Assembly: GCA_016192825.1 (NCBI GenBank)
Contig: JACPTK010000006.1
Span: 62,001-126,000, forward strand
Source: Betaproteobacteria bacterium
Lineage (GTDB): Bacteria > Pseudomonadota > Gammaproteobacteria > Burkholderiales > SG8-41
Length of the DNA: 64,000 nucleotides
Direction of reading: 5' to 3'
Position numbers and translations under genes: made by a program. A model generated the notes under the pieces. The model was not told the origin of the DNA. It did no database searches and worked only from the letters and a program-made list of their open reading frames with translations. The stretch's first letter is position 1. Every line of letters starts with the position of its first letter. Positions 7,618-43,604 of the stretch are shown in pieces.

Positions 7618-8940
<1,323 letters not shown>

Positions 8941-33250: not shown

Positions 33251-33326
33251 GCGGGAATAGCTCAGTTGGTAGAGCGCAACCTTGCCAAGGTTGAGGTCGC
33301 GAGTTCGAGACTCGTTTCCCGCTCCA
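33251..33326 (+). tRNA. glyW: tRNA-Gly (GCC)
   Basis: A 76-nt cloverleaf with encoded CCA: acceptor GCGGGAA/TTTCCCGC, D-arm AGCTCAGTTGGTAGAGC, anticodon arm CAACCTTGCCAAGGTTG (anticodon GCC) and T-arm GCGAGTTCGAGACTCG. It follows uvrC-pgsA as in E. coli, where the neighbours are cysT and leuZ. Its 3' half is the left attachment site of island A. Confidence 0.97.
33279..33326 (+). repeat. attL of island A (48-bp tRNA-Gly 3' half)
   Basis: The 48 bp from the anticodon stem through CCA of tRNA-Gly are repeated exactly at 43078-43125. The integrase gene begins 102 bp downstream. This is the usual layout of tyrosine-recombinase islands in tRNA genes. Confidence 0.9.
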
Positions 33327-33428
33327 GATTTCGGCTAGGTGCCTGACCGGAATCCTGAAACTGCGCCACCACGGCGACCAAGGGCCCCTGAAAAGGGTTG
33401 TGGTCGACGGCAGTTAAGGAGAACCGAA

Positions 33429-34307
33429 ATGGCGTTGTTCAAGGATGTAGTTGAAGCGTTCATCGCGTCACGGGAGTTTGATAAGGCAACACTCACCCGG
33501 CTCGCGTTCTGGGTCGAAGTGATCGGTGAGAAGGAGATCGCGGCCATCACCGCGGACGACATTGACGCGGCCCTCGTGAGGCTCGCCGAGCGCGGGCGGC
33601 TCAAGGCTGGCAGGCGGGCTACCGTGTCAGTTGGTCAACCGCTCGCCGGCTCGACCGTCAACCGTCACCTGACGCAGGCCGGGAGCGTGTTCAAGCACGC
33701 CAAGCGGCTGAAACTCGTGCCGCGCACGTTCATCGCGCCCACCCGCGGCATCGAGCGCATCCCCGAGCGTCCCGATCCCGAGCGCTATCTGCGGCCCGAG
33801 GAAGTCGCACGCCTCATCGCCGTGGCGCGGGTCGTGGATCGGCGGTGGAAAAAAATGCTCGCCCTCATCACCGTGGCCTATCACACGGGCATGCGCGTGG
33901 GCTCGATACTGGCCGTGCGTGGGAAGGACGTGGACCTCGACGCTGGCACGATCACCGTGCCTCGGACCAAAAACGGCGACCCGATCACAGCGGCGCTGTC
34001 GGCTGGCGCGCTTGCGGAATTACGGCGTCTGCCCAAGGTTGGCCCGGAGGCGCTCGTATTCGGAAACCGCGACGGCCGGCGCTACCACTACACCCCCCTG
34101 TGGCGGCGGATCACCGAGGAGGCGCGGCTTCCTGGACGTGTCTTCCATGAGCTGCGGCATGGTCACGGTTACGAGCTCGCCCGCGCCGGGGTAAGTCAGC
34201 AACTCATCATGGCGAGCATGGGGCACAAGACGCTCGCGGCCAGCCAGCGCTACGCCCATGCCAGCATCGCCGACAAGAAGGCTGTGATCGAGCGCGTGTT
34301 CGGATGA
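33429..34307 (+). CDS. int: Tyrosine recombinase/integrase of island A
   Basis: Catalyses site-specific integration and excision at tRNA-Gly. The ORF track starts at 33339, but ATG 33429 follows AAGGAGA and gives 292 residues. An N-terminal core-binding SAM-like domain (FKDVVEAFIASREFDKATLT) precedes the catalytic domain: Arg in AYHTGMRVGSILAVRGKDVD, Lys near PRTKNGDPI, the His-x-x-Arg box FHELRHGHGYELA, His in MASMGHKTLAAS and the nucleophile Tyr in QRYAHASIADKK. All catalytic residues are present, so it should be active. It overlaps the next ORF by ATGA. Confidence 0.93.
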   Translation: MALFKDVVEAFIASREFDKATLTRLAFWVEVIGEKEIAAITADDIDAALVRLAERGRLKAGRRATVSVGQPLAGSTVNRHLTQAGSVFKHAKRLKLVPRTFIAPTRGIERIPERPDPERYLRPEEVARLIAVARVVDRRWKKMLALITVAYHTGMRVGSILAVRGKDVDLDAGTITVPRTKNGDPITAALSAGALAELRRLPKVGPEALVFGNRDGRRYHYTPLWRRITEEARLPGRVFHELRHGHGYELARAGVSQQLIMASMGHKTLAASQRYAHASIADKKAVIERVFG

Positions 34308-34750
34308 AGAAGAAACTCAACCTCGAAACCACGCAGCTGCTCGAGCTGATAGTGGAGGGCAAGCCGGTGCGCGTGCGCATCGACGCCGCCGGCAACCCGA
34401 TCACGCTGAATGCGGGTTGTTGGATTGGCGGCGATGATGAACGTATCGCCAAGCTCGCGCTCGCGACGGTGAGACTGCAAATACGGGAGGCGACCGCACG
34501 CCGCCATCACGCTACCCGCACCCAGGCTTCAACCAGCACCAAGCGCGACCGCGCGGCCGACTTCTGGGGCGACGAATGGCTCGCCGTCGCGCACCTCAAG
34601 CACCCCGATTACCGCGCCGATCGCCTTGCGCAGGAGGCGCGCCGCATCATCGCGTTGAACGGCGAGGAGAAATCCGCGTACAAGAAGCGTAAAGACATTA
34701 CCGTGTACCGCGCCAAGCAATACCTCAAGAACAAGGACTCCAACCGCTAA
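34304..34750 (+). CDS. Hypothetical protein, co-translated with the integrase
   Basis: A 148-residue basic protein whose ATG overlaps the integrase stop (ATGA). The N terminus has a short beta-like segment (VEGKPVRVRIDAAGNPITLN), the middle is Arg/Thr-rich, and the C terminus is Lys-rich (YKKRKDITVYRAKQYLKNKD). The high charge would fit DNA binding, and its position suggests a directionality or regulatory factor, but I do not recognise the family. Confidence 0.6.
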   Translation: MKKKLNLETTQLLELIVEGKPVRVRIDAAGNPITLNAGCWIGGDDERIAKLALATVRLQIREATARRHHATRTQASTSTKRDRAADFWGDEWLAVAHLKHPDYRADRLAQEARRIIALNGEEKSAYKKRKDITVYRAKQYLKNKDSNR

Positions 34751-34885
34751 AGGGCATCCGTTTCGGCGAGACGTTACATTTCGCCGGGTTTTCTAGGTGT
34801 AGTCCTCCCCCTTTCGCCGGCAGCACATCGTCGTCGTGTTCCAGAATCTCCCTGTCGCCGTGGTGGCGCACACAGGAGGTTTGGA

Positions 34886-35167
34886 ATGGAACGAACGGAC
34901 GCGCCGGCACCGGACGAGCTGGCCGGCTATATTAACGTCGCGGACTGGCTCGACCGGCACGCCGGCCCGTTCTTCGAGACGCGCTCGAGCCTGGACTGGT
35001 TCATCAAACGAAACCGCCTTGAGCTGGTTGAGCGTGGCGCGCTCTTGCCCCGCGAGGGGCGCAGTGGCTCGCTCCTGTCTGTCGAGAAATTTCCCAAGGC
35101 CGTAGTCGAGATCCTCCGGCGCAGGGCGCTCGATAAGGTCCGTCCTGATTGCGGGAAGGCCGCGTGA
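34886..35167 (+). CDS. Small hypothetical protein, possible DNA-binding accessory factor
   Basis: A 93-residue protein with a strong ribosome site (AGGAGG, spacing about 8) before ATG 34886. It is mostly helical, with a basic core (SSLDWFIKRNRLELVERGAL, then FPKAVVEILRRRAL). The size and location after the integrase are typical of excisionase-type factors, but no clear winged-helix signature is visible. A hairpin terminator follows at 35186. Function unknown. Confidence 0.55.
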   Translation: MERTDAPAPDELAGYINVADWLDRHAGPFFETRSSLDWFIKRNRLELVERGALLPREGRSGSLLSVEKFPKAVVEILRRRALDKVRPDCGKAA

Positions 35168-35185
35168 GCCGGCGGAGAAATGAAA

Positions 35186-35208
35186 GCGCCCGCGTGCGAG
35201 GCGGGCGC
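35186..35208 (+). terminator. Hairpin after the integrase-proximal genes
   Basis: GCGCCCGC and GCGGGCGC form a perfect 8-bp stem with a 7-nt loop, preceded by ATGAAA. It lies between the 93-residue ORF and the DUF3102 gene, so it may separate early integration genes from the replication/structural block. No U-tract is present. Confidence 0.45.
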
Positions 35209-35279
35209 CGGATGGATCAGGTGAATGGACTACATCCGCAGTCTACACCAACCGCACGCACCCTGCGCCCGAGGGCAGC

Positions 35280-36080
35280 GTGAGGGCGCCCGCAATGAAA
35301 CTCCCAATCTCCCTGTTCAAGAGGGCGGATGATGTGTATGCCGAAAACCGCCCAGCAAGAGAGAAGCTTCGGGAATGCGCCGCGCGCATACATGCTCACG
35401 GTCACCGGATGATCGAGGACTGCCTTGCAATCGGCAAGGAGTTGGTCGCGGCGCGCGAGATCACCAGGGGCGCATGGCAGGGAGGTTCGCAAGAGGGCGA
35501 GTGGCGCAACTTCCTCGCCGAGCAAGTGAAGATGCCGCGTAGGCAGGCGCAGCGGTTCATCGACGTATACGAGAAATACGGGACGGGGGTGCCACGTGGC
35601 ACCCCCCTACCTGATACGAGTTTTCGAGTGCTCGCCGAACTGGCCGCCCCCGAGGCCGATCCGGAAGTCGTCGCCGAGCTGGAAGAGAAGATCGCCAAGG
35701 GCGAGCGCGTGACGGTCCGGCAGGCTACGCGGGCGAAGAAATCCAAAGCAACATCTGCGCGCCGAGATTGTGTTGAACAACCTGTTCACCGGGAACAAGT
35801 CGCAGATCTCAAGCAGTCCACGCCGACGCCGAAATCGAAAGGCGCGTCGCGCGCGGCACGGTGGGCCGATGCCTGCGCCAGCGCCTCAGCGGCGCTTGAG
35901 TGCCTGGTGGAACTCCAGGGGGACTACTCCGCATGGCGGGAGAACCTGCCTGAGAACTTCGCCGCGTCTGTAGTCGCCGACAAGTTGGACGTGATCACCG
36001 AGATCGACCTGCAGAGCGCGATCGACATCGTTAACGAGGCCGCCGGCGCGGACCTGCCGATGGGATTCGGGAGGGATTGA
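35280..36080 (+). CDS. DUF3102-like mobile-element protein
   Basis: A 266-residue protein. GTG 35280 follows GAGGG; ATG 35295 is an alternative. The first 100 residues match the DUF3102 pattern found in phage and plasmid proteins: HGHRMIEDCLAIGKELVAAR, then WRNFLAEQVKMPRRQAQRFI. Next come a Pro/Gly linker encoded by a perfect 22-bp palindrome (GVPRGTPL), an acidic helical region and a basic tail. DUF3102 proteins are often near ParB-like or replication genes, which fits the replication initiator immediately downstream. Molecular function is not known. Confidence 0.6.
   Translation: MRAPAMKLPISLFKRADDVYAENRPAREKLRECAARIHAHGHRMIEDCLAIGKELVAAREITRGAWQGGSQEGEWRNFLAEQVKMPRRQAQRFIDVYEKYGTGVPRGTPLPDTSFRVLAELAAPEADPEVVAELEEKIAKGERVTVRQATRAKKSKATSARRDCVEQPVHREQVADLKQSTPTPKSKGASRAARWADACASASAALECLVELQGDYSAWRENLPENFAASVVADKLDVITEIDLQSAIDIVNEAAGADLPMGFGRD
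35585..35606. repeat. Perfect 22-bp palindrome inside the DUF3102 gene
   Basis: GGGGGTGCCAC is followed at once by its exact complement GTGGCACCCCC. It lies in frame and encodes GVPRGTP. It is the strongest local dyad in island A outside the iterons. Confidence 0.8.
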
Positions 36081-36082
36081 CG

Positions 36083-36772
36083 ATGAGCGGACCAGGCCGC
36101 GGCGCGCGATTCAGATGGGAGCGTGATGTGCTCAGCAAGCGCGGGCCGGCCAACCCCACCACCAGGCACGTCCTACTGACGCTGGCGACGCACGTCAATG
36201 CCTCTTTGAACTGCTGGCCTACGACGAGGTTGCTCGCCCAGGAATCCGGTCTATCGGAGCGAGCCGTCTGCACCCACCTTGAGATCGCCGTCGGCGAGGG
36301 CTGGATTCGCCGAACGCTGAGAAGGGAGGGTAAAGGCTGGAGGAACTTCGTGTATACGCTGGTCGTTCCTGCTGAACCACGTTCAGCAGCATTACCACCT
36401 GATGGCGCTGAACCACGTTCAGCAGCAAGCGATAGCACAGGCATTCCCGCTTCTGGTGCTGAACCTGGTGCAGTTGGTGCTGAACGTCACGCACATGGTG
36501 CTGAACGTGACGACAATTTGGTGCTGAACGACGTTCAGTCTAACACTTCAATGTTCAACACTTCATTGAACAATTCAAAGAACACAAGCGCGCTCGCGCG
36601 CGCTGCTGAACCCCTTTTTATGGATGGAAAATCGAACACACCAAAACCGCCTGCAGGGATCGAGAAGTGGGCAATTGAAAACGGCATCGCAAGGTTGAGC
36701 CACGAAAGCGAACCCCAGTTTCGCAGACGTGCGACCGAAGCCTGGATGAAATCCATCGGGGCGAATCCATGA
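36083..36772 (+). CDS. Replication initiator-like helix-turn-helix protein of island A
   Basis: A 229-residue protein (ATG 36083 behind GAGGG). The N-terminal 90 residues form a winged-helix typical of phage replication/primosome-organiser proteins (NPTTRHVLLTLATHVNASLN, then TRLLAQESGLSERAVCTHLE and EGWIRRTLRREGKGWRN). The middle is low-complexity (repeated GAE) because the DNA there holds iteron-like repeats. A conserved-looking C terminus follows (FRRRATEAWMKSIGA), perhaps a helicase-loader contact. The layout, a DNA-binding initiator with repeats and an AT-rich stretch inside its own gene, resembles lambda gene O. Function is inferred. Confidence 0.65.
   Translation: MSGPGRGARFRWERDVLSKRGPANPTTRHVLLTLATHVNASLNCWPTTRLLAQESGLSERAVCTHLEIAVGEGWIRRTLRREGKGWRNFVYTLVVPAEPRSAALPPDGAEPRSAASDSTGIPASGAEPGAVGAERHAHGAERDDNLVLNDVQSNTSMFNTSLNNSKNTSALARAAEPLFMDGKSNTPKPPAGIEKWAIENGIARLSHESEPQFRRRATEAWMKSIGANP
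36371..36538. repeat. Iteron-like repeats inside the initiator gene (putative origin)
   Basis: Six copies built on GCTGAAC: two full dyads GCTGAACCACGTTCAGC (36371 and 36407), three half-sites GGTGCTGAAC (36455, 36476, 36497), the last two extended by GT, and a final dyad GCTGAACGACGTTCAG starting at 36523. Sites 3 to 6 are spaced 21-23 bp, about two helical turns. An AT-rich stretch (36541-36590) with related TTCAAC/TTGAAC words follows. This is the layout of an iteron origin next to an unwinding element. Confidence 0.7.
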
Positions 36773-36954
36773 ACGCCACGCTTCAACGACGCGCCGCAGA
36801 AACCCGGCTTGCCAACGCGCGCCGTGCATATGCACTCGCATCAGGACGCGCCCGCGGCGATCCGGAGGCAGCCGAGGAAGCACGGCAAGCCCGCCGCGAG
36901 ATCGACCGGGCGACGCGCGAGCTCGCACGACTGAATGCGAAGGGGATGCAATGA
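36769..36954 (+). CDS. Small helical hypothetical protein
   Basis: A 61-residue, Arg/Ala/Glu-rich protein likely to be one long helix or coiled coil (ETRLANARRAYALASGRARG, then ARREIDRATRELARLNAKG). Its ATG overlaps the stop of the initiator gene (ATGA), indicating co-translation. No family is recognised. Confidence 0.5.
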   Translation: MNATLQRRAAETRLANARRAYALASGRARGDPEAAEEARQARREIDRATRELARLNAKGMQ

Positions 36955-37093
36955 GGCGCTCGACCCCCGGGGGGGCCTTTCCAGTTGGAATCAACGACTT
37001 AGCTGTGTACCCCGCCGCACCTCAGGCGCAGAGGTGACGGGCGGTCCTATGTTTGAAACGGTGCGGCGCACAAATTGAAGGGGTCAGACAGAC

Positions 37094-37399
37094 ATGACGA
37101 CCAGGAAACCGGACGGTCCACCCGCGCATCTTTCGGACGAATCGAAGCGGCTCTACAAGAGACTCGTGCTGGAATTCGTGCTCGACGATTCGGCGGCTCT
37201 GATGCTGCTCCAAGCCGCGCTTGAGGCCCGCGACCGGCTCCAGGAGGCGCGGGAAATTCTCTCCAGGGACGGCTGCATGACGACTGACCGCTGGGGCAAG
37301 CCGCGCCCGCACCCGGCGCTGACCATGGAGCGGGATGCCCGCGCCGGGATGCTCAACGCGCTGCGGCTGCTGCGGCTCGCGCCGGGATCGGTGGACTAA
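37094..37399 (+). CDS. Phage terminase small subunit, P27 family
   Basis: A 101-residue protein of the P27-type TerS family, which recognises DNA for packaging. Visible family features are PPAHLSDESKRLYKRLVLEF, then LMLLQAALEARDRLQEAREI and the loop GKPRPHPALTMERDARAGML near the end. In phages TerS is followed by the large terminase, but here a 100-residue unknown protein follows instead. A TerS without a TerL fits a satellite that redirects a helper's packaging motor, or a deletion. Confidence 0.8.
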   Translation: MTTRKPDGPPAHLSDESKRLYKRLVLEFVLDDSAALMLLQAALEARDRLQEAREILSRDGCMTTDRWGKPRPHPALTMERDARAGMLNALRLLRLAPGSVD

Positions 37400-37702
37400 A
37401 TGACGACATCAAAATCAGTGCTGCGCGCCCGGCGGACGGTGGCCGGCCAACGGATGCCACTCGAAATTGAGCAGTGGTTCAGCGGCGAGATCCCGCCCGC
37501 GGATATTCCGTGGCCGGCGCTGATGCCCCCGGATTGCGACCGCCTGCTGCATTGGTGGTGGGAGTATTGGCGCGAACACCCGCAAGCCGTGCCGCCGCCG
37601 TACGTGCGCGGCGCGTTGCGGAATCATTGGGACGCCTACCTGGCGGCGCATCCCGGCGCGATGATGCCGGACGGCTTGGCCGGCATGATCGGCGACGACT
37701 GA
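37400..37702 (+). CDS. Hypothetical protein in the TerL position
   Basis: A 100-residue protein starting right after the TerS stop. It is rich in Trp and Pro (LLHWWWEYWREHPQAVPPPY, then ALRNHWDAYLAAHPGAMMPD). It has no Walker motifs, so it is not a terminase ATPase. Its stop overlaps the next ATG (TGATG). The position suggests a role in DNA packaging or capsid assembly, but this is only context. Confidence 0.55.
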   Translation: MTTSKSVLRARRTVAGQRMPLEIEQWFSGEIPPADIPWPALMPPDCDRLLHWWWEYWREHPQAVPPPYVRGALRNHWDAYLAAHPGAMMPDGLAGMIGDD

Positions 37703-37926
37703 TGACCGGACCTCGCCTACGCCAGCCGGCGCCCTCGACGCGCGACGTTGCGCTCGCCCGAGCCGATGCGCGCCTGGCAGCAGCCAGAGAGAAATTCTCG
37801 ACCGCGTGCGCCGCCTGCCTCGCCGGGCGCATGGATTCCGACGCTCGGATTCAGGACGCCCTGCAGGCCGTGGACCAGGCCCGCGCCGAGCTCGCCCGCC
37901 TCGCTGATGTTGAGGCTGACGAATGA
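37702..37926 (+). CDS. Small helical hypothetical protein
   Basis: A 74-residue protein. The ORF-track frame begins upstream, but ATG 37702 overlaps the previous stop. It is almost entirely Ala/Arg/Asp/Glu-rich helix (DVALARADARLAAAREKFST, then DALQAVDQARAELARL) with a Cys pair (CAAC) in the middle. It overlaps the next ORF by ATGA. Could be a scaffold-like or adaptor protein; function unknown. Confidence 0.5.
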   Translation: MTGPRLRQPAPSTRDVALARADARLAAAREKFSTACAACLAGRMDSDARIQDALQAVDQARAELARLADVEADE

Positions 37927-38318
37927 GCGCGCGCCCGATGCCTGCCGACGCCGATCTGCTCGCCTTGCTGATCCGGATCGACGCCAAGCTCGACCGCCTG
38001 CTCGAGGCCGTCGAGGGTGGGCGCACGCCGGCGCGATCGCTGCGGCATGAGGACCGTGCGGCGATGGCGAAAATTCTCCCGGTCCTGTCTGCAAACTTTT
38101 CCGGCAGCTTCGGGACGTGGGAGCTTATCGACGCCGCTATGCAACCCGATGCGCTCGGCGCGAATCTGCGCTTGGTGCTCGGAGGGCGCGGGGCCCGGGT
38201 GCTGGGGAAGCTATTCCAGCGCGCCCAAGATCAAGACGTTGATGGCTTCCGACTGCGCCGGGCCGGGCAAGACGGAAACGGCGCCTTGTGGGAGTGCATT
38301 GGCAATGAATCGTCCTAG
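37923..38318 (+). CDS. Hypothetical protein upstream of the capsid gene
   Basis: A 131-residue protein. It has an N-terminal coiled segment (LLALLIRIDAKLDRLLEAVE), then a globular part with FGTWELIDAAMQPDALGANL and GARVLGKLFQRAQDQDVDGF. The second part reads like a small helix-turn-helix or DNA-binding fold of phage regulators (residue context only). It lies between TerS-linked ORFs and the capsid gene. Confidence 0.5.
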   Translation: MSARPMPADADLLALLIRIDAKLDRLLEAVEGGRTPARSLRHEDRAAMAKILPVLSANFSGSFGTWELIDAAMQPDALGANLRLVLGGRGARVLGKLFQRAQDQDVDGFRLRRAGQDGNGALWECIGNESS

Positions 38319-38373
38319 CCCGCGCGCGCCGTGCGCCGGATCATGGCGTCAATTCTCAAAGAAAGGACGCAAC

Positions 38374-39441
38374 ATGATCCGACTTCAGTCAGGCGTGCAT
38401 GGCACTTTGCTTGCGGTTCTCGTTCAATGTCTTGCGCGCGCCAACGGCAACCATGGCGTCGCGGCGATGATGGCGAAGTCCGCTTTTCCCGGTTTTCCAA
38501 GCGTCGCCGAAACGCTCGGCCGAATGGGCGGAGTCCGAATGGACGACGTTCCGACTGGCGACACCACGACCGCCGGATGGGCTTCCGAACTTTCGCCTTT
38601 CAACTTGGATTCCGATTTCATCGAGGCCGTTCGCGCGAGAACCATTATCGACAGGTTGAATCAGGCGCGGCGCGCCCCGTTTTTGACCAACGTTCCCGTC
38701 GAGACCGGCCCGGCGAGCGGCGCGTGGGTCGGCGCTGGCGAACCGATTCCTGTAGGGCGAAGCACGTTTACGAATTTCGCGCTGGCGCCGTTTCGCTGCG
38801 GCGTGATCGTGCCTTTGACGCGCGAGTTGATCGACTCCCTCGCGCCGGCCGCGATTGTTGCGATTCGCGAGAGCTTGATTCGAGGCATCGCGGCCTATTT
38901 GGACTCGCAATTTCTCGACCCGTCCGTCGCTGCCGTCACCGACGTTTCCCCCGCCTCGATCACCAATGCACTTGTGCCGGTCATGAGCAGCGGCACCACG
39001 GCGGCGACGATTGCCGCCGATCTCGCCGCGATGCTCAATGCGACCGCGGATTTGGTAAACCCAGTCTGGATCGCGAACGCGCGCACCGCCGCTTACCTCG
39101 CGCTCACGCTCGGGCGGGAGGAAATCAAAATCAACGGCGGAACGCTGCTCGGCATTCCGCTCCTCACGACGCAAAGTTCGCCCGCGCCGGTTGGCAGCCC
39201 GGCAATGCCGAGGATGATTTGTCTGCTCGACCAGGACGCGCTGCTCGTCGCCGACGACGGGCAGGCCGATGTCGCGGTTTCGACCGCGACGGCGCTGTCG
39301 CAGCAGACCGCGCCGAGCTCCGGCGCGCAAAGCACCGTCAGTTTATTTCAAACGCATGCCGTCGCCGTTCGCACGATTCGGCGCATCTCGTGGCGGCGCA
39401 CGCGCACGGCGGGCGTCGTTTACATGGAAGTCAATTACTGA
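38374..39441 (+). CDS. HK97-fold major capsid protein
   Basis: A 355-residue phage capsid protein. The ORF track begins at 38017, but ATG 38374 follows GAAAGGA. HK97-family features: DFIEAVRARTIIDRLNQARR, ASGAWVGAGEPIPVGRSTFT (the usual WVGE-type motif), FRCGVIVPLTRELIDSLAPA, and a C-terminal LFQTHAVAVRTIRRISWRRT. The N-terminal segment is short, so a separate scaffold or a delta-domain may be missing. With the downstream ClpP-like protease it implies that this element builds its own shell. Confidence 0.8.
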   Translation: MIRLQSGVHGTLLAVLVQCLARANGNHGVAAMMAKSAFPGFPSVAETLGRMGGVRMDDVPTGDTTTAGWASELSPFNLDSDFIEAVRARTIIDRLNQARRAPFLTNVPVETGPASGAWVGAGEPIPVGRSTFTNFALAPFRCGVIVPLTRELIDSLAPAAIVAIRESLIRGIAAYLDSQFLDPSVAAVTDVSPASITNALVPVMSSGTTAATIAADLAAMLNATADLVNPVWIANARTAAYLALTLGREEIKINGGTLLGIPLLTTQSSPAPVGSPAMPRMICLLDQDALLVADDGQADVAVSTATALSQQTAPSSGAQSTVSLFQTHAVAVRTIRRISWRRTRTAGVVYMEVNY

Positions 39442-39452
39442 TCGAGGCGCGC

Positions 39453-39962
39453 ATGGACGTACGCGAAAGAATCGCCGCGCTGAACCGGGAATTTTCCGCT
39501 CCCGGCTGCAAGAAACCGATTTCAGAATACAACGCGCGACTCTCAGAGCTCGAGGCCGAAGAGCGACAGGAAAAAGTGTTCGCAGCGGCGCAGAAAGCCA
39601 GGCCGACGATAGACGGGCGCGTCCCGAAACCCGCGCCGGAAGTCTCGCTGGAAAACGACCCGACGCCCGTCACGCGAAAGTTTTTCATGGGAGTTATGAA
39701 GTCCGTGCTGAAAGATGTTGCCGACACGTTCAGGTCCGAGGACGCCAAGCTGCTCGAGAAACTGGAAGCGCGCATAACCGCGATCGAAAACCGCCCAACG
39801 ATGCAGTATCGCGGAGTCTGGGAAGCGGATGGGCGCTATCAACCTGGCGATGTCGTCACGGACTCAGGCTCCATGTGGCACGCCAACTGCAGCACCACCG
39901 CGAGGCCAGGCGCCTCGAGCGATTGGACGCTGTGCGTGAAGCACGGCCGTGATTTGCGATGA
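39453..39962 (+). CDS. Structural protein with a C-terminal carbohydrate-binding-like domain
   Basis: A 169-residue protein from ATG 39453. Residues 1-110 are helical and charged (MDVRERIAALNREFSAPG, and MGVMKSVLKDVADTFRSEDA). The last 55 residues read YRGVWEADGRYQPGDVVTDS, then GSMWHANCSTTARPGASSDW, the aromatic pattern of CBM5/12-type chitin-binding domains often found on phage virions. It may decorate the capsid or bind the cell surface. It overlaps the next ORF by ATGA. Confidence 0.6.
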   Translation: MDVRERIAALNREFSAPGCKKPISEYNARLSELEAEERQEKVFAAAQKARPTIDGRVPKPAPEVSLENDPTPVTRKFFMGVMKSVLKDVADTFRSEDAKLLEKLEARITAIENRPTMQYRGVWEADGRYQPGDVVTDSGSMWHANCSTTARPGASSDWTLCVKHGRDLR

Positions 39963-40204
39963 GCGCCGGGCTGGACCTTTACGACCGCCGCGTGCTGCTG
40001 CACACTTTTGTTAATGACGAAATGGCCAAGGTAGCGGACGGGCTGCGCGCGGAGCTTGAGGCGCAATTTCCGGAAGCCCCGCAATCCGTAATCGACGAGG
40101 CAATCGCCGAAGGCCGGCGGCTGATCTATCAAGAATCGCAGGCGCTTCATGCGCGAGTCGATCGCACGATTGACGGCGCGGTCAAGCGACTGGAAGGAAA
40201 ATGA
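39959..40204 (+). CDS. Small hypothetical structural-module protein
   Basis: An 81-residue, mostly helical acidic protein (LLHTFVNDEMAKVADGLRAE and VIDEAIAEGRRLIYQESQAL). It overlaps both neighbours by ATGA, so it is translated as part of the capsid block. No family recognised. Confidence 0.5.
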   Translation: MSAGLDLYDRRVLLHTFVNDEMAKVADGLRAELEAQFPEAPQSVIDEAIAEGRRLIYQESQALHARVDRTIDGAVKRLEGK

Positions 40205-40461
40205 ACACGCTCGCGCCCGGCACGATTTGCTTCCTGCGCGGTCTTGCCGACTATCCGGACCTGACCGGCCGCGTGGTCGAGGTCGCCCACCTTGTGACGC
40301 TTCCGGATTTCGGCGACGATTGGTATGAGCTGTACGCGCTTTGGATCGTCGAGCGTTTTCCGGGTCAGATGGCGCTTGCGCCGCGCCGCTGCTTGCTGCC
40401 GATCACGCCACCCGGGCCCGCGGCGACAGCCCGCAAGCCCGTGACCGTCGAGGGCTCATAG
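40201..40461 (+). CDS. Small hypothetical protein
   Basis: An 86-residue protein with a beta-rich pattern (TICFLRGLADYPDLTGRVVE, then WYELYALWIVERFPGQMALA) resembling small SH3/KOW-like barrels, ending in a Pro/Ala-rich tail. ATGA overlap with the upstream ORF. The gene is in the structural block; function unknown. Confidence 0.5.
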   Translation: MNTLAPGTICFLRGLADYPDLTGRVVEVAHLVTLPDFGDDWYELYALWIVERFPGQMALAPRRCLLPITPPGPAATARKPVTVEGS

Positions 40462-40462
40462 C

Positions 40463-41425
40463 GTGCGACTCACGGCTTCCGCGCCGGGCAAGTGGGACCC
40501 GGATTTTCGCGCCATTCGGATTTACGCGAGCACGGTTCAAGGCTTCACGCCCGCGTCGGAAAATATCGTTTTCGACGGCGGCGTGATCCCCGAGAACGGC
40601 GAGACTCTCGCCGCCGATGTGAGCGGGCTCGACCCCGGAACGACCTACTACGCGCGCTATCAACTTTTCGATCTTCTTGGCGGCGGCGACATTTCCGACG
40701 AATTTTCATTCACGACGCAGCGTGTCGTTGATCGAGCGACTCCGTACGGCCCCGACTCGACCACCTACACCAGCACCAAGACCGACGTGGCCGGCCCTAA
40801 AGTTGTCGCGATGATCGAGCACACGAATTACCCCGCGGTGCCGGCCCAATTGAGCGCTACCTTCGCCGCGCAGTTAACCGTGGGACCGCTCGATAACGGC
40901 GTCACGCAGTACTGGACGGCTATCCGCTACACCTCGAAACCGGCGTCGGACGGAACTTGCGCGCTCTCGTGGGCCGGAGTCGGCGGCTCGAAATACGATG
41001 TCGTCGGCACCGGCACCGACTTCACGCTGCTGGCGGCCAAGGACTACATATATTTTGGGCCGGGCAAGCCGCTCGCCACGGTCAGCTCGATCACCGATGC
41101 AACGCACATGCGCGTCGCGCTCTATCCAGCCAGTTCCGCGGTGGCGGGCACCGACTTCCCGGTCAGCGGCTGGACCTTTCAGGCATATCACCACACATCC
41201 GGGCTCGCGCAGCAATGCGACCCGCAGTCCGATGTCAGGGAGATGCTGGCGAGCGCGACGCAGGATATCTCCGTGCGGACGGGTTTCCCCATGGTCTTGG
41301 ACGGCGCCATTGGCGTCGCGCTTTTTGCGCTGGCGCAATCGTCAACTGGTGGTGGCGCTAGTTACTACTGCGAAGTGAAGCAATCCTCGCTCGATTCTCA
41401 GTGGGTGATAGGGTCCGGGGCGTGA
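40463..41425 (+). CDS. Putative virion protein with an FN3-like domain
   Basis: A 320-residue protein with a GTG start 1 bp after the previous stop. The N-terminal 95 residues look like a fibronectin type III or Ig-like beta sandwich (GLDPGTTYYARYQLFDLLGG, DEFSFTTQRV). The rest is beta-rich with many Ser, Thr and Gly, as in head-decoration or fibre proteins (CALSWAGVGGSKYDVVGTGT, GWTFQAYHHTSG). No tail tape-measure or baseplate gene is nearby. It could be a capsid fibre. It ends in a GTGA overlap with the protease. Confidence 0.5.
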   Translation: MRLTASAPGKWDPDFRAIRIYASTVQGFTPASENIVFDGGVIPENGETLAADVSGLDPGTTYYARYQLFDLLGGGDISDEFSFTTQRVVDRATPYGPDSTTYTSTKTDVAGPKVVAMIEHTNYPAVPAQLSATFAAQLTVGPLDNGVTQYWTAIRYTSKPASDGTCALSWAGVGGSKYDVVGTGTDFTLLAAKDYIYFGPGKPLATVSSITDATHMRVALYPASSAVAGTDFPVSGWTFQAYHHTSGLAQQCDPQSDVREMLASATQDISVRTGFPMVLDGAIGVALFALAQSSTGGGASYYCEVKQSSLDSQWVIGSGA

Positions 41426-42093
41426 GCGACTGGCACATCGGCGAGGCCAGCCTGATCGCGCGAATCGCGGGCCCGATCAAGCGCCACATGCCGGGCGAGC
41501 TGCGAGCGTTGCTCCCGTACGCGCGCGGAGAAGTGTTAGTTTTTCTGGATAGCCCTGGCGGCGACGGCGACGCGGCGCGCGAGATCCACGACATGCTGCG
41601 AGCGCATCCGCACCAGATCACCGTTTTTATCAGCGGTCACGCGGACTCGAGCGCGTCCTTGATCGCGATGGCCGGGCGGCGGATCTGGATGAGCCCCTCC
41701 GCGCGGATGCTGCTTCATAACCCCGTGCCTGGCCGTGCGGTAAAAAATGCGCCGGGCATGCGGGCGGTCGCGGACGCACAACGCGGCGCGATCTCCGCGC
41801 AACAGAGCTGGCACGGCGTGGCGAGTGTCATCAACGGCGCGATCTCCGAGGCCCTGGCGCAGCCGAGCGCGACATGGGTCGAAGAGCACGCCGCGCAGTA
41901 CGCGAAAATCTACGCTCGCCGGACGCGGCGCCCCGTATCGGAAATGCGGCGGCTGATGGAGATCGGGACCGATCTGAGCGCGCAGCAGGCGGTGGCGAAG
42001 GGATTCGCGGACCGGATCGCCGTCATTGAGCTGCCGCGCGAGGGCAGTATGGGGTGGCGCATGCCGATTTATTCACATGCGAGGCCATCATGA
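41422..42093 (+). CDS. ClpP-like head maturation protease
   Basis: A 223-residue ClpP/SppA-fold serine protease typical of phage prohead processing. I use GTG 41422, overlapping the previous stop; the ORF-track start is 41401. Key motifs: LDSPGGDGDAAREIHDMLRA (oxyanion region), ISGHADSSASLIAMAGRRIW (nucleophile Ser) and PSARMLLHNPVPG (His). The C terminus has GTDLSAQQAVAKGFADRI, common in ClpP-type phage proteases. In most phages it precedes the capsid gene; here it is about 2 kb downstream. Confidence 0.85.
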   Translation: MSDWHIGEASLIARIAGPIKRHMPGELRALLPYARGEVLVFLDSPGGDGDAAREIHDMLRAHPHQITVFISGHADSSASLIAMAGRRIWMSPSARMLLHNPVPGRAVKNAPGMRAVADAQRGAISAQQSWHGVASVINGAISEALAQPSATWVEEHAAQYAKIYARRTRRPVSEMRRLMEIGTDLSAQQAVAKGFADRIAVIELPREGSMGWRMPIYSHARPS

Positions 42094-42296
42094 TGCAATC
42101 CCTCTACTGCATGTTGTTCTGGGCCGCCTGCCAGTCGCCGGGCATCGAGCCCGAGTGGGACGAGTGGGCGTGGTCGCTGCCGCCGCGCGTCGAGCAAGCC
42201 CGCCCGCTCGAACAGTCGCCGCCGTGGTCGAGTTTCTACGCGCGCATTTTCGAGCAGCCGCCGTCACCGGGCCACGGCGTGCCGGGCCGGCGCTGA
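42090..42296 (+). CDS. Small Pro-rich protein, possible lipoprotein
   Basis: A 68-residue ORF overlapping the protease stop (ATGA). A short hydrophobic N terminus with a Cys (SLYCMLFWAACQSPG) precedes a Pro/Glu/Trp-rich tail (PPWSSFYARIFEQPPSPG). This loosely recalls Rz1-type spanin lipoproteins, but the lipobox is poor and no holin or endolysin is present, so the call stays open. Confidence 0.4.
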   Translation: MMQSLYCMLFWAACQSPGIEPEWDEWAWSLPPRVEQARPLEQSPPWSSFYARIFEQPPSPGHGVPGRR

Positions 42297-42325
42297 CGCA
42301 TCCGCGCGCGCGAGGCGCGCTAAAC

Positions 42326-42355
42326 AAAAGCCTTCCCAATAATGGGAAGCCTTTT
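42326..42355 (+). terminator. Terminator of the island A structural operon
   Basis: AAAGCCTTCCC-AATAAT-GGGAAGCCTTT forms a stem of about 10 bp with one internal C-C mismatch, followed by TT. The direct repeat CGCGCGCGCGAGGCGC flanks it on both sides (near 42304 and 42364). Confidence 0.65.
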
Positions 42356-42446
42356 GCGTCACCCGCGCGCGCGAGGCGCACTGTGCCGAGTCTTGCGTGC
42401 TCCAGGCCTCGCGGGCTGTCGAGTATTCAACCTGATACGCTTGGCG

Positions 42447-42812
42447 ATGGCGGAAAATGGCCTGAACGGCTTCGGCGCGCGATTCGAAAACTGGCGGCGC
42501 TGGTGTTTTGCAAACGGCCGCCATGTCGGTCGCGCCGGCTCCGCCGAGGGCGGCTGGCGCAGCCCGCAGCATTGGTATCCCGAGGATCCCCGGCCACCCG
42601 CGATCGACGTGCCGGACGCGGTGCTCGTGAATCAGGCATTCACGTCGCTTGCGTTACTCGCGCCGCGACAGGCGCGGATCATCAAGATCATCACCTTCCG
42701 CCCGTACCTCAGGCCCCAGTACCAAGCTCAGAAGCTCGGCATCCACTACCTGCAGCTCGGCGAGGCGTACCACCGCGCCAAGCTGGCGCTCGCCGCGCGG
42801 CTGTCAGACTGA
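42447..42812 (+). CDS. Putative antiterminator Q/RinA-like regulator
   Basis: A 121-residue protein; the ORF-track frame begins at 42342 in the terminator, and ATG 42447 is the first sensible start. It contains FENWRRWCFANGRHVGRAGS, then VNQAFTSLALLAPRQARIIK and a helix-turn-helix-like end (YLQLGEAYHRAKLALAARLS). This combination resembles late-gene regulators of the phage Q/RinA/sigma-70-like group. It stands alone at the distal end of island A behind a terminator. Call is by pattern only. Confidence 0.45.
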   Translation: MAENGLNGFGARFENWRRWCFANGRHVGRAGSAEGGWRSPQHWYPEDPRPPAIDVPDAVLVNQAFTSLALLAPRQARIIKIITFRPYLRPQYQAQKLGIHYLQLGEAYHRAKLALAARLSD

Positions 42813-42942
42813 TCCTCTCCGCGCCCTGATTCCCTATCGCCTGGCCGCGTGGCGCTGCGCTGTGGCGCTCGCGCGCCCTGCCTGACCCATTCCCCCGTCC
42901 GCGGCCGGCGGCGCGTCCTGACGCAAATCTCGAATGAAAACG

Positions 42943-42959
42943 CCCGCCAGTGTGGCGGG
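42943..42959 (+). terminator. Hairpin near the right end of island A
   Basis: CCCGCCA-GTG-TGGCGGG is a perfect 7-bp stem with a 3-nt loop, preceded by ATGAAAACG. No U-run follows. It lies 130 bp after the last island A gene. The rest of 42813-43012 shows no gene. Confidence 0.5.
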
Positions 42960-43012
42960 TGACCCCGACGACCGCGAGGCTAGGGCGGTGGCGAATCCAG
43001 ACAGCGCCACTG

Positions 43013-43042
43013 TTCGCAACGCCTTGCAACACCCGGTATAAT
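43013..43042 (+). promoter_or_regulatory. Island-borne promoter facing tRNA-Cys
   Basis: A perfect TATAAT (43037-43042) with TTCGCA 18 bp upstream, located 35 bp before the attR copy of the tRNA-Gly 3' half. It points toward tRNA-Cys and may replace the original upstream tRNA promoter that the island displaced. Confidence 0.4.
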
Positions 43043-43077
43043 TACGGTGTCGCTAGTTGTAGCGCAGTGGCGGGATT

Positions 43078-43125
43078 ACCTTGCCAAGGTTGAGGTCGCG
43101 AGTTCGAGACTCGTTTCCCGCTCCA
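43078..43125 (+). repeat. attR of island A (tRNA-Gly 3' half copy)
   Basis: Exact 48-bp copy of 33279-33326. Upstream it is joined to TAGCGCAGTGGCGGGATT, which cannot form the normal D-arm and acceptor of tRNA-Gly, so this copy is not a functional tRNA. Confidence 0.9.
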
Positions 43126-43209: not shown

Positions 43210-43220
43210 GTTTGGTTTTC

Positions 43221-43291
43221 GGCGGGGTGGCAGAGTGGTCATGCAGCGGCCTGCAAAGCCGTGGACGCCGGTTCGATTCCGACCCCCGCCT
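43221..43291 (+). tRNA. cysT: tRNA-Cys (GCA), CCA not encoded
   Basis: A 71-nt tRNA: acceptor GGCGGGG/CCCCGCC, D-arm GGCAGAGTGGTCATGC, anticodon arm CGGCCTGCAAAGCCG (GCA) and T-arm GCCGGTTCGATTCCGAC. The 3' end reads T-CCC rather than T-CCA, whereas the displaced 3' half at attR of island B reads TCCA. So CCA was probably encoded before island B integrated and must now be added enzymatically. Confidence 0.95.
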
Positions 43292-43293
43292 CC
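43250..43293 (+). repeat. attL of island B (44-bp tRNA-Cys 3' half)
   Basis: From the anticodon stem to the end of tRNA-Cys, 44 bp are repeated exactly at 54462-54505. An integrase relic follows about 130 bp downstream. Confidence 0.88.
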
Positions 43294-43418
43294 CTCCCAT
43301 TCTCGCGAAGCGCAGTAACCCTTCCTTCCCCCTCGACGGGGGAAGGATCAGAGGATGGGGGTGGTGCTCAACTTCCTCCATCCTTCGGGTCTGCGACTGC
43401 TCGGCCGCCGTGGTCCCT

Positions 43419-43604
43419 GCACGGGACAAGCTCGGCCTCAAGGACCTGCGGCTGCACGACCTGCGCCATGAGGCAACGTCCACGCTCTTCGAGAAGGGCC
43501 TGTCCCCGATCGAGGTGGCGACGATGACGGGGCACAAGACACTGAACACACTGAAGCGGTATACACACCCGAACGTCACTGAGATTGCGCGGAAGCTCGG
43601 ATAG
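43419..43604 (+). pseudogene. Integrase C-terminal relic of island B
   Basis: The frame carries the end of a tyrosine recombinase: LGLKDLRLHDLRHEATSTLF (His-x-x-Arg), ATMTGHKTLNTLKRYTHPNV (His and the nucleophile Tyr) and a TAG stop. The first Arg box and the whole N terminus are missing. A 9-bp hairpin CCTTCCCCC/GGGGGAAGG (43324-43346) lies where the body of the gene should be. It marks the tRNA-proximal end of the island. Confidence 0.8.

Follow-up and report, generated by a model that had tools for sequence, protein, structure and literature searches.

A short DNA word, GCTGAAC, recurs many times within a single gene of a 9.8-kb integrated phage-derived element, and the question raised by this locus is whether the repeats are kept for the protein that they encode or for the DNA itself. 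The gene, found in a 64-kb stretch of DNA analysed as a whole (hereafter the window), encodes an O-like replication initiator. On the sequence evidence, positions 36371–36589 are very probably the replication origin of the element, embedded in its own initiator gene; the O-like protein would bind and open this origin, and a DnaB-type helicase would then be recruited.

The initiator and its repeat array

The initiator gene occupies 36083–36772 on the forward strand and encodes 229 amino acids; the reading frame opens at 36077, the ATG at 36083 is the likely start, and the stop codon ends at 36772. The N-terminal domain is the winged helix HTH_36 (PF13730, Pfam E 5.5e-7, above the gathering score), and in PHROGs the protein matches two families of O-like proteins for replication initiation, phrog_391 (E 4.9e-14) and phrog_1032 (E 2.2e-13), with a profile match spanning both the N-terminal domain and the linker. 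In the AlphaFold model, the winged helix comprises residues of about 5–96 (pLDDT mostly >90), followed by a linker of about residues 100–184 that is predicted to be disordered (pLDDT mostly <50) and contains the repeat array, and by small C-terminal helices at residues 193–224. Structure searches with the initiator recovered the winged-helix fold only; the best matches were winged-helix proteins of many functions, many of them tied, and no single initiator stood out among them. The C-terminal domain gave no match to a known helicase-interaction domain.

Nine GCTGAAC/GTTCAGC half-sites lie within the linker, with GCTGAAC on the forward strand at 36371, 36407, 36458, 36479, 36500, 36523 and 36605 and GTTCAGC at 36381 and 36417; the shorter GTTCAG is found at 36533. 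The sequence-only reading had proposed six GCTGAAC-based sites inside the coding region, three of them dyads, which is confirmed by the coordinates (36371–36539). Iterons 1 (36371–36387) and 2 (36407–36423) are the same perfect dyad GCTGAACCACGTTCAGC, iteron 3 (36458–36474, forward strand) is a degenerate dyad GCTGAACCTGGTGCAGT, and iteron 6 (36523–36539) is the dyad GCTGAACGACGTTCAGT with one mismatch, read in the frame VLNDVQ versus AEP/AER elsewhere. Iteron 4 (36479–36485, forward strand) is a half-site GCTGAAC inside GGTGCTGAACGTC, and iteron 5 (36500–36506, forward strand) is a half-site GCTGAAC followed by GTGACGACA, which is conserved in homologues. Paired half-sites make up three 17-bp dyads, of which one contains a mismatch, and two of the six sites consist of a single half-site. 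From one site start to the next, the distances are 36, 51, 21, 21 and 23 bp; the last four sites keep the 21–23-bp register that had been read from the letters, and the first three, 36 and 51 bp apart, fall outside it, which counts against an origin.

The density of the word far exceeds expectation. Nine occurrences were found in the 258-bp linker, where a first-order Markov model gives 0.095 on average (at most 3 in 50,000), and nine in the initiator coding sequence versus 1.18 in synonymous-codon shuffles (maximum 6 in 20,000). If GC-rich CGCGCGC runs are disregarded, no 7-mer is repeated more often within 220 bp anywhere in the 64-kb window, and the initiator array has no second mismatch-free occurrence in the host genome.

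An AT-rich stretch (36534–36589), the presumed DNA unwinding element, encodes an Asn/Thr/Ser-rich segment and carries imperfect 12–15-nt direct repeats (AACACTTCAATGTTC, AACACTTCATTGAAC and AACAATTCAAAGAAC). AT content reaches 66% over 36540–36589 versus 36% over the element, and duplex stability within the 9,847-bp element is lowest in the 50 bp at 36534–36583 (-60.0 kcal/mol), at the last iteron, compared with a mean of -78.4 (sd 4.6) for 50-bp stretches and a next separate minimum of -66.0. Both the minimum at 36534 and the imperfect repeats bear out the earlier description of an AT-rich stretch with related words after the sites. A GC-rich hairpin (AGCGCGC...GCGCGCT) is located at 36587–36604, between the AT-rich stretch and a seventh GCTGAAC copy (36605–36611, forward strand) that the sequence-only reading had missed and whose significance is uncertain.

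Selection on DNA rather than protein

The contribution of the protein to the repeats was assessed by a shuffle test in which synonymous codons were permuted with the protein kept and repeated 9-mer pairs were counted. The initiator gave 63 pairs versus 4.5 (sd 3.0) in the shuffles (0/1000, z 20.7), and lambda O, the positive control, gave 24 versus 5.3 (z 6.2, 0/1000). Nine other genes of the element and its neighbourhood ranged from z -1.1 to 3.4, six of them at 1.3 or less and the other three at 2.1–3.4. Some control genes showed a modest excess that is unexplained, including the helicase of phage ZF40 (L052 2728–4140, z 4.5) and an element gene of unknown function (40463–41422, z 3.4). In sixteen homologous loci, among them some that barely differ from one another, z was 7–23.

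Codon usage was then compared among eight sequences, namely that of the window and those of seven homologues sharing 43–49% identity with it in the DNA-binding domain, over a 45-bp block aligned on the CTGAA core. This 15-codon block (36497–36541, forward strand), which comprises a half-site and a dyad, is conserved at the DNA level: where the residue is identical, the codon is also identical in 94% of cases, versus 38% in the DNA-binding domain, and third-position identity is 0.76 versus 0.36, numbers that are not independent because they come from pairwise counts among eight related sequences, with one close pair omitted. Within the DNA-binding domain, third-position identity stayed at or below 0.42 in every stretch of 15 codons. 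After removal of all CTGAA/TTCAG core codons, the block still showed 0.89 codon identity and 0.69 third-position identity. The sequence-only reading had proposed that homologues should conserve the repeats as DNA while the encoded linker varies, and the 94% versus 38% of identical codons agrees with that.

The word is also read in more than one frame. In the window it encodes A-E-P/R in one frame versus V-L-N-D-V-Q in another, and in seven homologous loci (L021, L023–L026, L029 and L030) it appears both as GGC ACT GAA (G-T-E) and as AAG GCA CTG AAC (K-A-L-N). The predicted disorder and the two reading frames uphold the suggestion that the linker is of low complexity with the DNA under selection. 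Since the same words recur in distant relatives despite differing protein, the DNA signal itself is preserved, and comparison of the homologues indicates that DNA content, not protein, is under selection at the sites.

Homologues and their repeat words

Homologues from Burkholderiales, a Desulfosarcina MAG and viral contigs were recovered with an alignment query; single-sequence searches for related loci with the initiator, the capsid and the small terminase found no relatives. One locus (L008) was set aside for a match containing a stop, and two more (L035 and L036) as distant HTH proteins without arrays (z <1 in the synonymous-codon shuffle).

The array word is TGGTGCTGAAC in the window, AAGGCACTGAAC in seven loci (in L021 the last base is often changed), ACTTGCTGAAC in L031, GGTACCGAAC/GTCCCGAAC in L022, TGGTCCCGAA in L011, TGGTCCGGGC in L006 and GGTGGTCCA in L032; L006, L027 and L032 use words other than CTGAA(C) or CCGAA. 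The recognition helix reads GLSER(A/S)V(C/I/V)TH(L/I) in the window and the CTGAA(C) group, GLSERAVGIHL in L022 and GLSERAVSTHL in L011 (both with the word CCGAA), GMNEKAVRTHI in L006 and GLSRSSVIAHI in L032. These pairings are suggestive of an iteron word that varies with the recognition helix within the family, in a sequence comparison not corrected for relatedness.

Embedding of the array is frequent and not universal: L011 has a weak array that scores z 2.1 in the shuffle, and no clear array is present, unlike in the window, in the HTH_36 initiators of the Burkholderia phages BgVeeders33 (z 1.4) and KS9 (z 3.0). A DnaB helicase gene adjoins the homologue in L021, L031, L033 and L046, and annotated helicase genes adjoin the initiator in BgVeeders33, KS9, BUCT708 and ZF40. 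In L031, an HNH-like segment (CEVCGD...HHPDYSKP...WLCRAHH) is inserted in the initiator linker at about 8330–8530, just before the repeats.

Comparison with known origins

In lambdoid phages, the origin is made up of inverted-repeat iterons together with an AT-rich tract, halfway along gene O (PMC7466680), and lambda itself has four annotated iterons in gene O with spacings of 20, 24 and 23. The locus shares with the origins of lambda and the Stx phages a central position within the initiator gene and 4–6 dyad iterons at about 20–24 bp; an AT-rich tract directly downstream of the iterons, an N-terminal DNA-binding domain and a C-terminal part encoded after the origin are likewise common to lambda and the window. 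It differs in the word GCTGAAC with 17-bp dyads mixed with half-sites, in the lack of a P-type loader adjoining the initiator in the element, and in the protein family: lambda O matches Phage_rep_O (PF04492), whereas the initiator here matches HTH_36 only. The label "lambda-O style" given to the locus by the sequence-only reading therefore stands for the architecture and fails for the Pfam family. Comparison of the initiator profile with lambda O by hhalign found no relation (probability 0.8%). PHROG 345 and 678 match both proteins over overlapping parts and PHROG 391 mostly over different parts, and because some profiles match both, a remote relation is possible. As an architecture, a lambda-type embedded origin is well supported by these comparisons. 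The element is not filed as a whole lambda replication module (O plus P), because no helicase or loader was recognised beside the initiator.

Closer in domain are the initiators of BUCT708, ZF40, ST64B and SfV (Stenotrophomonas, Pectobacterium and enterobacterial phages), which share the HTH_36 domain and a shuffle excess (z 7–12), and in BUCT708 and ZF40 also the helicase neighbour seen in some relatives; they differ in being only 25–30% identical and in having other repeat words. The oriL of SPP1 contains direct repeats and an AT-rich unwinding element inside gene 38, which encodes the origin-binding protein, and a DnaB-family helicase is loaded there (PMC6316719). Compared by description rather than by sequence, the two origins are alike in being embedded in the gene of the origin-binding protein, while SPP1 is a Gram-positive phage with a second origin, oriR, and its own loader and helicase. 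In PICIs, the origin lies 3' of the Pri-Rep gene and two iteron sets flank the AT-rich region (PMC6092414). The PICI replicons of SaPI and EcCICFT073 resemble the element in having an island-borne origin with an AT-rich region and an own initiator on a small integrated element; here, by contrast, an O-like gene contains the origin and the element has no recognised primase. A PICI replicon was ruled out by this layout, which has no Pri-Rep gene with a 3' origin and flanking iteron sets.

Full-text searches of open-licence literature turned up no publication on origins embedded in the HTH_36 initiators of the window's group, and one may exist.

Alternative functions of the repeats

Two other roles for the array have to be weighed. 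The repeats might serve as a functional repeated peptide (GAEP/GAER in a low-complexity linker) or be a plain repeat expansion with no DNA role, and five of the six forward-strand copies before the AT-rich stretch indeed share the AEP/AER frame. However, the last of these copies lies in the other frame (VLNDVQ), in several homologues two frames occur with similar frequency, codon choice is conserved beyond the residues, shuffles that preserve the protein lose the repeats, and the linker is predicted to be disordered; this explanation is accordingly hardly credible. Microsatellite-like expansion and protein-level selection were discarded in view of the codon and frame tests.

The array might instead be an operator or autoregulatory (incompatibility) site, at which the HTH protein shuts off transcription of its own gene rather than starting replication. 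The winged helix, whose best structural matches are for the most part regulators of transcription and general transcription factors, would suit such a role, which would need roadblock action within the gene because a search for sigma-70-like promoters over 35900–37100 found none. The PHROG matches to O-like replication initiators, the DnaB and other helicase neighbours in relatives, the stability minimum directly beside the array and the lambda-like number and spacing of sites all speak against it, and an operator in place of an origin is very unlikely. Autoregulation could coexist with origin function.

The 9.8-kb element

The element spans 9,847 bp (33279–43125) between two tRNA-Gly repeats. 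The attL-side repeat (33279–33326, forward strand) is the 3' end of tRNA-Gly(gcc) (33251–33326, ARAGORN), and the attR-side repeat (43078–43125, forward strand) is its exact 48-bp copy (blastn-short 48/48). A tyrosine integrase (33339–34307, forward strand; PF00589 E 2.4e-24, phrog_1 E 9.8e-48) is accompanied by DUF3102, the O-like initiator, a small terminase, an HK97-type major capsid protein, a ClpP-like protease and unknowns. Searches with Pfam and PHROGs recognised neither a large terminase nor a full portal nor tail genes in the element, and no DnaB, DnaC, P gene or other helicase or loader. Just outside it, an open frame at 43212–43604 resembles the C-terminal part of an integrase and overlaps tRNA-Cys (43221–43293); it is possibly the remnant of a second integration. 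In the host's family, a genome (G016) holds a second element (L044 4350–18354) with integrase, O-like initiator, capsid and tape-measure genes, whose initiator carries a different iteron word and in which about 1.5 kb between initiator and capsid leaves no space for a large terminase and portal.

The element could be a satellite or a prophage in decay. Compared with capsid-forming satellites (cfPICI-like), the small terminase, major capsid and ClpP-like protease are present and the large terminase and full portal were not found. Tentatively, it could be a phage satellite of a kind absent from the literature searched, one that encodes its own capsid and small terminase, pairs an HTH_36 initiator with a lambda-O-style origin, and lacks genes for a recognisable helicase, large terminase or tail. 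No candidate helper is named, because the TerL model PF03354 gave no match in the host genome. It is about equally conceivable, and likewise rather improbable, that the origin is real and no longer works in a decayed prophage, which is compatible with the origin identification. The size of only 9.8 kb, a capsid and small terminase left without large terminase and full portal, and a host genome without a PF03354 match would fit such decay; against it, the flanking 48-bp repeats are intact, the initiator, integrase and capsid frames are open, and the origin block is conserved as much as in other homologues.

Proposed mechanism and implications

By analogy with lambda and SPP1, we infer the following course for an active element. 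The element would excise at the tRNA-Gly repeats, and the O-like protein would bind the GCTGAAC dyads and half-sites via its N-terminal winged helix, building up a nucleoprotein complex across all six sites. Opening of the neighbouring AT-rich stretch would follow, and the small C-terminal domain of the initiator would recruit a DnaB-type helicase. Because neither a helicase nor a loader was recognised among the genes of the element, both would have to come from the host or a helper phage.

The locus offers a clear case, readable from sequence alone, of protein-coding DNA kept for its DNA content. The HTH_36 initiator family is common, and no study of it was found in the literature searched. 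The apparent joint variation of word and recognition helix makes the family a ready-made series for working out how a winged helix selects its DNA, and the synonymous-shuffle test lets HTH_36-type prophage origins be located from sequence. If the satellite reading is true, the satellite would start its own replication, borrowing helicase, packaging motor and tails from its host or helper.
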